Assembly: GCF_000422545.1 (NCBI RefSeq)
Contig: NZ_AULZ01000001.1
Location: 1-64,000 of the forward strand
Reading direction: 5' to 3'
Length of the DNA stretch: 64,000 nucleotides
DNA from: Desulfocurvibacter africanus subsp. africanus DSM 2603
Lineage (GTDB): Bacteria; Desulfobacterota; Desulfovibrionia; Desulfovibrionales; Desulfovibrionaceae
Numbering within the stretch: position 1 is the stretch's first letter; each line of letters starts with the position of its first letter. The translations under genes and the position numbers were made by a program. Of this stretch, positions 1 through 61,565 are shown one piece after another. The notes under the pieces are model-generated. The model saw only the letters and a program-made list of their open reading frames with translations, was not told the DNA's origin and did no database searches.

Positions 1-132
1 TTTAGAGCATTTTGCTTTTGAAAATGCTCTGCAAGCCATGCGTCGGCATGGCTTGCCGCCGCGTAGGCGTAGGCGCAATTCACTTGCGCCGTCAACGCCG
101 GAGCGTGCGTCTTAAAAGCAATCAGCTCTAAA
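1..132 (+). repeat. Interspersed hairpin repeat, copy A
   Basis: First of eight copies of one element in the window. The ends are near-perfect inverted repeats (TTTAGAGCA-ttttgctttt against the reverse complement of the right end). Inside are hairpins: AGAGCATTTT/AAAATGCTCT at 4-13 and 21-30, GCAAGCCATG/CATGGCTTGC at 31-40 and 47-56, GGCGCAA/TTGCGCC at 72-78 and 84-90, then a weaker ACGC/GCGT stem. No protein-coding role is evident. It lies upstream of tkt. The stretch 133-389 between the element and tkt holds no convincing gene. The window starts at the element boundary, so the left flank is unknown. Confidence 0.9.
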
Positions 133-5263: not shown

Positions 5264-5393
5264 TTAGAGCATTTTGCTTTTGAAAATGCTCTGCAAGCCA
5301 TGCGTCGACATGGCTTGCCGCCGCGTAGGCGTAGGCGCAATTCACTTGCGCCGTCAACGCCGAAGCGGGCGTCTTAAAAAGCAATCTGCTCTA
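5264..5393 (+). repeat. Interspersed hairpin repeat, copy B
   Basis: Full-length copy in the same orientation as copy A, lying between the convergent msrP and ligD genes. All internal hairpins are present; one loop base differs (cgtcga). Flanking bases CCAAGCT and GATAAGA give no target-site duplication. Confidence 0.9.
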
Positions 5394-10428: not shown

Positions 10429-10558
10429 TTTAGAGCATTTTGCTTTTGAAAATGCTCTAAAAGCCATGCGTCGGCATGGCTTGCCGCCGCGTAGGCGTAG
10501 GCGCAATTCACTTGCGCCGTCAACGCCGGAGCGGGCGTCTTAAAAGCAATCTACTCTA
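10429..10558 (+). repeat. Interspersed hairpin repeat, copy C
   Basis: Full-length copy between the divergent topIB and trxC-like genes, so it may sit in or near both promoters. Flanks show a short inverted match (GGCAC/GTGCC), not a direct repeat. An open frame through this copy joins the topoisomerase frame and could mislead start prediction. The rest of the 359-bp gap 10329-10687 shows no gene. Confidence 0.9.
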
Positions 10559-13202: not shown

Positions 13203-14937
13203 CAAGACCTATCGCGTAGTCATCATGCACCTGGACAAGGGCTACGCCGAGCCCGTGTCCTTCGGTGACACCAAGGAACTTCTCGGCGGCAGCCATCTGG
13301 CCGCCGCGCTCTATGACAAGTACGGCCTGCCGAACGAGCACTGGGACCACCCGGACCAGCCGCTCATCTTCGCCATCGGCCCGCTGGTGGGCTACTTTCC
13401 GCTCATGAGCAAGGTGGTCTGCGCCTTCAAGTCGCCCTACAACGATCAGTACAGCGAGTCGCACGCCGGAGGCCGCCTGGCCCTGGCCATGCGCTTCGCC
13501 AATGCCGACGCCATCTTGTTCCGCGGCCGGGCCAAAACCCTGTCCGCGGCGGTCATCGGCGCGCGGCGACTGGGCCTGGTGGACGTGCACTACCTCAAGG
13601 GCATGGACGTCTTCTCGACCGGCCGCAGCCTGCGCAAGACCATCGAGGGCTTCTCGGGCCACCGCTCGCTCATGCGCATCGGCCCGGCCGGCGAGAACCT
13701 CTCGGCCTACGCGTGCATCAACGTGGACACCTACCGCCACTTCGGCCGCATGGGCAGCGGCACGGTCATGGGCGTGAAGAACCTCAAGGCGGTCATGGTC
13801 CAGGGCGACGAGTCCATCCCCCTGCCCGAGGGCAAGCCATACCAGACCCTGTTCCGCGACATCTACAAGCAGATGACCGCTACGCACATGATGAGCAAGT
13901 ACTTTGATCTGGGCACGCCCCAGAACCTTATACCGCTCAACGAACTCAAGTCGCTGCCGTGGCGCAACTTGCAGGCCACGCACGATTCCGGCGTGGAGGG
14001 CATCTCCGGAGAACGCTTTGCCAAGGATCTGCTGTTGCGCAACACGGCCTGCTCGGGCTGTCCCGTGGGCTGCATCCACATCGGCATGCTGCGCGAGATG
14101 TTCTCGGACGAGCACCGCTTCAAGTACCACCAGGTAGCCTATGACTACGAGCCCATCTTCTCCGTGGGCTCCATGATCGGCGTGACCGACGCAAGCGGCG
14201 TGCTGTCCATCATGGACGAGGTGGAAAAGGTCGGCGTGGACGTCATGAGCGCGGGCGTGGCCCTGGCCTGGGCCACAGAGGCCTTCCAGAAAGGTATCAT
14301 CACCGAGGAGCAGACGCTCACGCCCTTGGAGTTCGGCTATGTGGAAGGCTACAAGAAAGCCGTCGCCCACCTGGGCTACGCGCCCAACGAGTTCTACATG
14401 CGCCTGGCCAACGGCGCGCTAAAGGCTGCCGCGCACTACGGCGGCGAGGATTTCGCCTGCGTGCTGGGCCAGGAAATGGCCGGCTACGCCACGGGCGAGG
14501 TCTTCTTCGCCCAGCAGGCCATGAGTTTCCGCCACTCGCACCTGGACGCCGGCGGCTACTCCTACGACCAGACTCACAACGAGCAGGACGCGGACAAGGC
14601 CATCGACTACCTGATCAAGGACGAGCAGGGCCGTTGCGTGCTGACGAGCATGGTGGCCTGCCTGTTCTCGCGCGGGGTGTACAAGAACGACGTGCTATCC
14701 AAGTGCCTGGACTCCATCGGTTACCCGGAGCTAGCCGGCAAGCTCGACACCATCGGCGCGGACATCCAGAAACTACGCTGGCAGATCCGTTTCAAGACCG
14801 GCTATGATCCGGTGCAGACGAAGATTCCCAAACGTTTCCTGGAGATTGAGACCTGGAAGGGCAAGATCGATCCGCAGTACCTGGACACGCTGAAGCACAG
14901 GTACGGGCAGGCGCTGATGGAGATTGGACGAAGCTAG
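13192..14937 (+). CDS. Aldehyde:ferredoxin oxidoreductase (tungsten enzyme family)
   Basis: Oxidises aldehydes to acids, or runs in reverse, with low-potential electrons; cofactor is a tungsto-bispterin plus one [4Fe-4S] cluster. The 581-residue protein carries the N-terminal GGSHLAAAL pterin region, the cluster motif CSGCPVGC (C287, C290, C294) and the distal cluster cysteine C490 in VACLFSRG. Substrate cannot be told from sequence. A strong GGAGGTAACC site precedes the ATG. Odd feature: the stop codon TAG is the first three bases of repeat copy D, so the present C-terminus was set by the element. A strong terminator follows that element. The polyferredoxin gene upstream is its probable electron acceptor. 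Confidence 0.93.
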   Translation: MPANKTYRVVIMHLDKGYAEPVSFGDTKELLGGSHLAAALYDKYGLPNEHWDHPDQPLIFAIGPLVGYFPLMSKVVCAFKSPYNDQYSESHAGGRLALAMRFANADAILFRGRAKTLSAAVIGARRLGLVDVHYLKGMDVFSTGRSLRKTIEGFSGHRSLMRIGPAGENLSAYACINVDTYRHFGRMGSGTVMGVKNLKAVMVQGDESIPLPEGKPYQTLFRDIYKQMTATHMMSKYFDLGTPQNLIPLNELKSLPWRNLQATHDSGVEGISGERFAKDLLLRNTACSGCPVGCIHIGMLREMFSDEHRFKYHQVAYDYEPIFSVGSMIGVTDASGVLSIMDEVEKVGVDVMSAGVALAWATEAFQKGIITEEQTLTPLEFGYVEGYKKAVAHLGYAPNEFYMRLANGALKAAAHYGGEDFACVLGQEMAGYATGEVFFAQQAMSFRHSHLDAGGYSYDQTHNEQDADKAIDYLIKDEQGRCVLTSMVACLFSRGVYKNDVLSKCLDSIGYPELAGKLDTIGADIQKLRWQIRFKTGYDPVQTKIPKRFLEIETWKGKIDPQYLDTLKHRYGQALMEIGRS

Positions 14938-15063
14938 AGCATTTTGCTCTTGAAAATGCTCTGCAAGCCAAGCGTCGGCATGGCTTGCCGCTAGCTTCGG
15001 CGTAGGCGCAATTCACTTGCGCCGTCAACGCCGGAGCGGGCGTCTTAATAGCGATCTGCTCTA
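14935..15063 (+). repeat. Interspersed hairpin repeat, copy D, with 7-bp flanking direct repeat
   Basis: Full-length copy. The bases ACGAAGC occur immediately left (14928-14934) and immediately right (15064-15070), as expected of a target-site duplication. The element then runs exactly from TAGAGCA to TGCTCTA. Its first three bases are the AOR stop codon. It separates the AOR coding end from the terminator at 15082. The middle is altered (gctagcttcggcgtagg) relative to other copies. Confidence 0.92.
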
Positions 15064-15081
15064 ACGAAGCATTAGAAATGG

Positions 15082-27141: not shown

Positions 27142-27272
27142 TTTAAAGCAGATTGCTTTTAAGACGCCCGCTCCGGCGTTGACGGCGCAATTGAATTGCG
27201 CCTACGCCTACGCGGCGGCAAGCCATGCCGACGCATGGCTTGCAGAGCATTTTCAAAAGCAAAATGCTCTAA
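27142..27272 (-). repeat. Interspersed hairpin repeat, copy E
   Basis: Full-length inverted copy. One end reads TTTAAAGCA instead of TTTAGAGCA. The GGCGCAA stem is lengthened to GGCGCAATT/AATTGCGCC. It lies 20 bp after the 3'-flank repeat. The rest of the gap to 27447 shows no gene. Confidence 0.9.
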
Positions 27273-33316: not shown

Positions 33317-33448
33317 TTTAGAGCATTTTGCTTTTGAAAATGCTCTGCAAGCCATGCGTCGGCATGGCTTGCCGCCCCGCAGGCGTAGGCGGAATGTAAT
33401 TCCGCCGTCAACGCCGAAGGGAGCGTCTGAAATGCAAAATGCTTTAAA
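33317..33448 (+). repeat. Interspersed hairpin repeat, copy F, with compensatory stem changes
   Basis: Most divergent full copy. The third hairpin reads GGCGGAAT-GTA-ATTCCGCC (33388-33406) where others read GGCGCAA-TTCAC-TTGCGCC; the stem base pair changed on both sides, so pairing is kept. The right end is TGCAAAATGCTTTAAA and pairs better with the left end than in other copies. It lies between the livG promoter region and the qmoD terminator. The rest of the gap 33126-33578 has no gene. Confidence 0.9.
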
Positions 33449-51611: not shown

Positions 51612-51741
51612 TTAGGGCAGATTGCTTTTAAGACGTCCGCTCCGGCGTTGACGGCGCAAGTGAATTGCGCCTACGCCTACGCGGCGGCAAGCCATGTCGA
51701 CGCATGGCTTGCAGAGCATTTTCAAAAGCAAAATGCTCTAA
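51612..51741 (-). repeat. Interspersed hairpin repeat, copy G
   Basis: Full-length inverted copy between convergent ppiD and the lipoprotein gene. One end reads TTAGGGCA. Its other end, TAGAGCA on the minus strand, supplies the stop codon of the lipoprotein gene, as in copy D. No flanking direct repeat is seen. Confidence 0.92.
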
Positions 51742-61505: not shown

Positions 61506-61565
61506 TTTAAAGCAGATTGCTTTCAAGACGCCTGCTCCGGCGTTGACGGCGCAAGTGAATTGCGG
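61506..61565 (-). repeat. Interspersed hairpin repeat, copy H (truncated)
   Basis: Only the right-end half of the element is present (TTTAAAGCAGATTGCTTTCA to AAGTGAATTGCG); the hairpins at the other end are missing. It is 113 bp after the RND stop. The rest of 61393-61633 shows no gene. Confidence 0.82.

Follow-up and report, generated by a model that had tools for sequence, protein, structure and literature searches.

In this work, the window is the whole 64,000-nucleotide stretch of the Desulfocurvibacter africanus subsp. africanus genome that was analysed, and its central feature is copy F, a complete 128-bp element bounded by TA dinucleotides and built of three hairpins and an enclosing helix. 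Main-type (A) copies of the same element, and a fragment, lie elsewhere in the window. Coordinates refer to the window, and strands are given for each feature:

33319..33446, + strand: copy F, complete 128-bp element, TA-GAGCATTTTGC ... GCAAAATGCTT-TA, with terminal TA and a YTAR target context
33320..33346, + strand: hairpin 1, AGAGCATTTT / AAAATGCTCT (arms 33320-33329 and 33337-33346), overlapping the left terminal inverted repeat
33347..33372, + strand: hairpin 2, GCAAGCCATGC-GTCG-GCATGGCTTGC, abutting the core; other genera have a hairpin of different sequence here
33373..33425, + strand: conserved core, with P0, a GNA/GRA 3x3 internal loop, P1, bulged A33387 and hairpin 3
33373-33378 paired with 33419-33421 and 33423-33425, + strand: P0 of the core
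33382-33386 paired with 33411-33415, + strand: P1 of the core
33388..33406, + strand: hairpin 3, GGCGGAAT-GTA-ATTCCGCC, with swapped pair G33392-C33402
33377, + strand: 5' side of the second swapped pair, C (main type G)
33420, + strand: 3' side of the second swapped pair, G (main type C)
33426..33446, + strand: 3' arm with the right terminal inverted repeat, whose reverse complement is TAAAGCATTTTGC; 12 of 13 positions shared with the right-hand end of the L121 IS630 element
3..130, + strand: main-type (A) copy
5265..5393, + strand: main-type copy, between convergent genes
10431..10558, + strand: main-type copy
14935..15064, + strand: main-type copy, variant in which CTAGCTTCGGCG replaces CCGCGTAGGCG
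27142..27272, - strand: main-type copy, in which hairpin 3 has 8 bp but lacks the swap
51612..51741, - strand: main-type copy
61506..61564, - strand: fragment, 3' half only

Re-reading of the letters confirmed the sequence and coordinates that an initial annotation had given for the third hairpin of copy F, in which GGCGGAAT (33388-33395) and ATTCCGCC (33399-33406) enclose a GTA loop. The same annotation held that both arms had changed with pairing kept and extended, and this is borne out as a single pair exchanged on both sides (33392-33402, from C-G to G-C), together with a T33395-A33399 pair that lengthens the stem. At hairpin 3 the window's remaining full copies carry GGCGCAA/TTGCGCC, read as GGCGCAATTCACTTGCGCC or, in the copy at 27142-27272, as GGCGCAATTCAATTGCGCC; this last hairpin also has 8 bp, without the swap. 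Two things had escaped notice: a second pair in F changed on both sides (C33377-G33420 versus G-C in the main type), located in the P0 helix that encloses hairpin 3, and about 30 further copies in the genome with the same changes. The replacement of CCGCGTAGGCG by CTAGCTTCGGCG defines a separate main-type variant group (window 14935-15064; L236, 2133; L090, 16347) and alters the left arm of P0.

Approximately 333 copies of this non-coding element were found in the 4.4-Mb Desulfovibrionaceae genome (163 forward and 170 reverse; none in the control), and 172 full copies were aligned from a sample of stretches covering about 1.66 Mb. Elements begin with TA-GAGCATTTTGC and end with GCAAAATGCTT-TA in F or GCAATCTGCTC-TA in main type A, with terminal inverted repeats TAGAGCATTTTGC and TAAAGCATTTTGC or TAGAGCAGATTGC. 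Clean TA...TA ends were present in 144 of the 172, and their flanks carried T or C at -1 in 125 cases and A or G at +1 in 132, so that the target is YTAR. Two copies are nested inside other copies, and when either one is taken out, the surrounding copy is intact again and carries a single TA, corresponding to a 2-bp duplication; one of these is an F copy within an A copy, which means that F itself has moved. The element is thus a MITE of the IS630/Tc1-mariner (TA-target) kind, being short and high in copy number, with terminal inverted repeats and TA duplication. Copies are mostly intergenic and are enriched between convergent genes (63 of 164 copies, where such regions make up 26% of the intergenic length; p=0.0003, genes called by a simple hexamer model). 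Copy F had no Rfam match near any gathering score, and its exact pattern had no match outside its own genome in the named genome collection, from which near relatives may be missing.

Four DDE_3 matches occur in the genome, two of which are IS630-family elements with HTH and DDE_3 domains and split open reading frames (L121 and L122). The ends of the IS630 elements (TAAAGCAACTTGC, TAAAGCACTTTGC and TAGAGCAG) agree with those of the repeat at 10-12 of 13 positions (1-3 of 13 differ), and these matching ends point to an IS630-family transposase as the enzyme that most likely mobilizes the repeat in trans; in the genome we saw no autonomous partner that was both intact and identical to the MITE at its ends. 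At L121 (positions 1-1097, contig C35 of the same genome), an IS630-family element abuts a main-type copy exactly at the expected 3' end of that copy, at an internal TTA, which suggests insertion into a MITE or fusion with one. In Desulfovibrio sp. ZJ369 (L153 and L198), an apparent transposase gene starts after TAGAGCAATTTGACTTT, right behind a MITE end.

A search with F recovered 34 near-identical copies in the genome. Pair 33392-33402 is G-C in 32 of the 172 aligned full copies, 30 of which are also C-G at the second pair, and 13 of the 32 F-type copies are identical to the F consensus. The swap is therefore one inherited event that marks a subfamily and is not private to copy F. The consensus sequences of F and A match completely over their first 58 nt, and their 15 differing sites all fall in the last 70 nt (clustering P=5.5e-5); because F differs from A only in this 3' part, both arms would have changed together, and the paired change was probably acquired as one block and not in two steps. 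The F core is 87% identical to the core at L269, in another genus, versus 81% to the A core of its own genome, and it groups with cores of other genera (tree support 0.83, from 53 nt with covarying columns included). Another lineage may have served as donor of the F core. Recombination between copies is evidenced by a chimera (L071 1478-1607; C1:265480), in which an A-type 5' part running through hairpin 3 is joined to an F-type 3' end and P0 pairing is broken. Two F-type copies (L084, 18756; L086, 6471) carry a second, A-type terminus (TTTAAAAGCAATCTGCTCTA) in tandem at their end.

The initial annotation had taken the paired change in copy F as a sign that the folded form is under selection, a claim to be given up if a larger alignment showed no significant covariation. 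Covariation was assessed with a re-implementation of the R-scape idea (G-test, APC and a parsimony-based null), not with R-scape itself. Among 138 distinct copies of the genome no covariation was significant: in a test against substitutions simulated on the tree, pair 33392-33402 received E ~21, like many unrelated columns that differ between F and A, and judged by these copies the claim would fall. An independent compensatory mutation in a single copy, as originally proposed, is thus very improbable. A change in one arm alone would weaken hairpin 3 from about -10 kcal/mol to a predicted -6.0 or -3.4, a loss of 4-7 kcal/mol that speaks for such compensation, but the 172 copies include no single-arm intermediate toward the F state, and since all 30-32 sampled F-type copies share the swap, we rejected copy F as an independent event.

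The picture differs across the family. Using a covariance model, we found the core in at least 60 of 247 family genomes and at least 13 of 44 genera (lower bounds, since filters were stricter and the number of scored candidates was capped), and none was among the matches listed for a sample of about 287 genomes from the rest of the phylum. Against mobilization by an IS630-family transposase, a DDE_3 match (1e-10) was absent from 42 of the 60 core-bearing genomes, though the two are associated: the core occurred in 18/37 IS630 genomes versus 42/210 others (Fisher p=0.0006, with relatedness ignored and core counts as lower bounds). In an alignment of 81 distinct cores, the top 7 of 1,326 column pairs all belong to the structure, and the two strongest are the very pairs that are swapped in F, in hairpin 3 and in P0. 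Under the tree-aware null, E<0.002 was reached by three pairs, namely these two and the neighbour of the hairpin 3 pair; 6 of 18 structure pairs were significant when tested alone, an alignment made from sequence only returned the same three pairs, and shuffle and slide controls agreed. Parsimony places about 5 separate double changes at the hairpin 3 pair, whose states are C-G in 44 cores, G-C in 24, A-T in 10 and T-A in 1, and 5-6 such changes at the P0 pair. Unpaired positions are conserved as well: the 3x3 GNA/GRA internal loop is kept across genera, its A is present in 75/81 and 79/81 cores on the two strands, and the bulged A in 78/81. The predicted core fold has z of -2.4 to -4.4 versus mononucleotide shuffles, and in most lineages a hairpin of differing sequence occupies the hairpin 2 position (median z -2.2). 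These alignments support the view that the core fold, including the pair first noticed in copy F, has been kept through repeated paired changes across the family. Selection on the fold, as the initial annotation concluded, is therefore supported by the comparison between genera, whereas the evidence it drew from copy F does not hold because the swap is common to the subfamily.

The same core also occurs in elements of another kind. In several genera, hairpin 2 and the core are found with other ends, GTTGACAAAG...CTTTGTCATCA, and these elements lie between two identical copies of a locus-specific and often terminator-like hairpin of 16-34 nt, placed 33 nt to the left and 43-56 nt to the right of the core. 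Randomly paired left and right flanks have no more than 12 nt in common (mean 6.2), and those of the TA class 5-8. In the other-ended elements the length of the duplication follows the hairpin, as would be expected if the target duplication comprised the entire hairpin. The hairpin-flanked loci are as follows, by genome:

G008: L281, L282, L283, L286, L288, L289 and L291
G075: L293
G181: L253
G108: L307
G072: L325

Occurrence of one core with different ends indicates a module independent of those ends. We tentatively suggest, as a possibility short of an even chance, that the core is a functional folded module, as RNA or ssDNA, common to IS630-type MITEs and to terminator-inserting, hairpin-duplicating elements, with an end-independent role in mobility or host tolerance. 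At three further loci of G008 (L284, L285 and L290), a common 100-nt left flank is joined within hairpin 2 and is perhaps another mobile element.

The level at which the fold is selected can be approached through mutations private to single copies. In main-type copies, such mutations are mostly pair-breaking and about as frequent at paired as at unpaired sites (0.63 versus 0.72 per site, p=0.30), whereas in the younger F copies stems carry fewer of them (0.10 versus 0.28 per site, p=0.006, from 22 mutations only). The lack of stem depletion in the main type, with some in F, fits maintenance in a spreading lineage better than a use of every copy to the host, and selection on the fold appears supported for the lineage of spreading elements and not for single copies. 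That the elements are instead host-useful RNA parts, such as mRNA stabilizers or sRNA-like hairpins, with the fold of each copy selected, is accordingly improbable. The strong predicted core fold would suit such parts, as would the protected stems of F copies and an excess of G-T over A-C stem mismatches across genera (38 versus 26); but stems of the main type mutate at the rate of loops, and the absence of orientation bias relative to flanking genes in tandem pairs (39 versus 42) argues against a host function of strand-specific RNA. The G-T excess comes mostly from one pair, and in main-type copies, with P0 left out, the two mismatches are roughly even (41 versus 50), so the strand test is not decisive.

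The main rival to selection on the fold, somewhat less improbable than host-useful RNA but still unlikely in our judgement, is template switching in a quasi-palindrome, which copies one arm onto the other and yields paired changes without selection. Short inverted repeats do contain every covarying pair, the copy at 27142 is a more perfect palindrome than its sister copies, and the stems of single main-type copies are unprotected. Arm copying should nevertheless have erased the GNA/GRA loop, the bulged A and the P0 bulge, which persist in 13 genera, several of them near-invariant, and the P0 and P1 arms are interrupted by unpaired features, yet P0 covariation is the strongest. Least probable of all is a REP/REPIN-type element that depends on a RAYT (Y1 transposase) for its movement, which would share the high-copy intergenic palindromes but not the TA target duplication and terminal inverted repeats seen here; it was ruled out because the genome has no match to the Y1_Tnp profile (PF01797) although control genomes do.

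Taking these results together, we consider it probable that copy F is a TA-target MITE, that its swap is a subfamily marker, and that its core fold is kept in the spreading lineage and works single-stranded. Copy F is non-autonomous and inserts at the TA of YTAR with a 2-bp duplication, as the nested insertions show, most likely by means of an IS630-family transposase supplied in trans. Recombination may have produced a mosaic of a main-type 5' half with the core and 3' end of another lineage, which would then have been amplified to 30 or more copies. The swap would keep pairing because the core (P0, GNA/GRA loop, P1 and hairpin 3) is a conserved folded module; we infer that the fold acts as a single strand, either RNA or transiently exposed ssDNA, though the strand evidence is weak. 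Our best guess is that the core aids mobilization of the element or renders it harmless in intergenic transcripts.

Elements of this kind are known from other bacteria. The RUP of Streptococcus pneumoniae, mobilized by IS630-Spn1, is likewise non-coding, about 107-128 bp long and intergenic, with terminal inverted repeats, a TA target, roughly 100 or more copies and ends that resemble a resident IS630 element; it differs in phylum and sequence, and the review that covers it describes no family-wide covarying core shared by different-ended elements (PMC2229807). ERIC (IRU) of enterobacteria, at 127 bp, also combines terminal TA, a stable fold, high copy number and intergenic location, but forms one long stem where the present element has several hairpins and an internal-loop core, a distinction made from its description (PMC2229807). 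Correia (NEMIS) of Neisseria is a MITE with a TA target, many copies and structured transcripts, but its ends and sequence are different and RNase III processing is a feature of NEMIS (PMC2229807). The CIR repeats of Caulobacter and Brucella are similarly intergenic with a phylogenetically conserved multi-arm RNA fold, which is predicted for the present element, yet they have no clear terminal inverted repeats, and what is conserved in them is a loop that carries a GANTC site (PMC2229807). A search of the open literature turned up no account of such repeats in Desulfovibrio, although this does not prove that none exists. The kind of element is thus known, as a TA-target MITE like RUP and ERIC, while an internal covarying core was not found described.

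Copies within one genome can mimic compensatory evolution while merely sharing an ancestor. The hairpin-flanked sister elements suggest a structure-guided choice of target, and transposases with fixed spacing are poor at explaining such flanks. Judgements of short bacterial repeats usually rest on the ends, with the inside regarded as filler; an internal fold that appears to be kept by paired changes in 13 genera, within elements that have different ends, may instead be tested as a working part.
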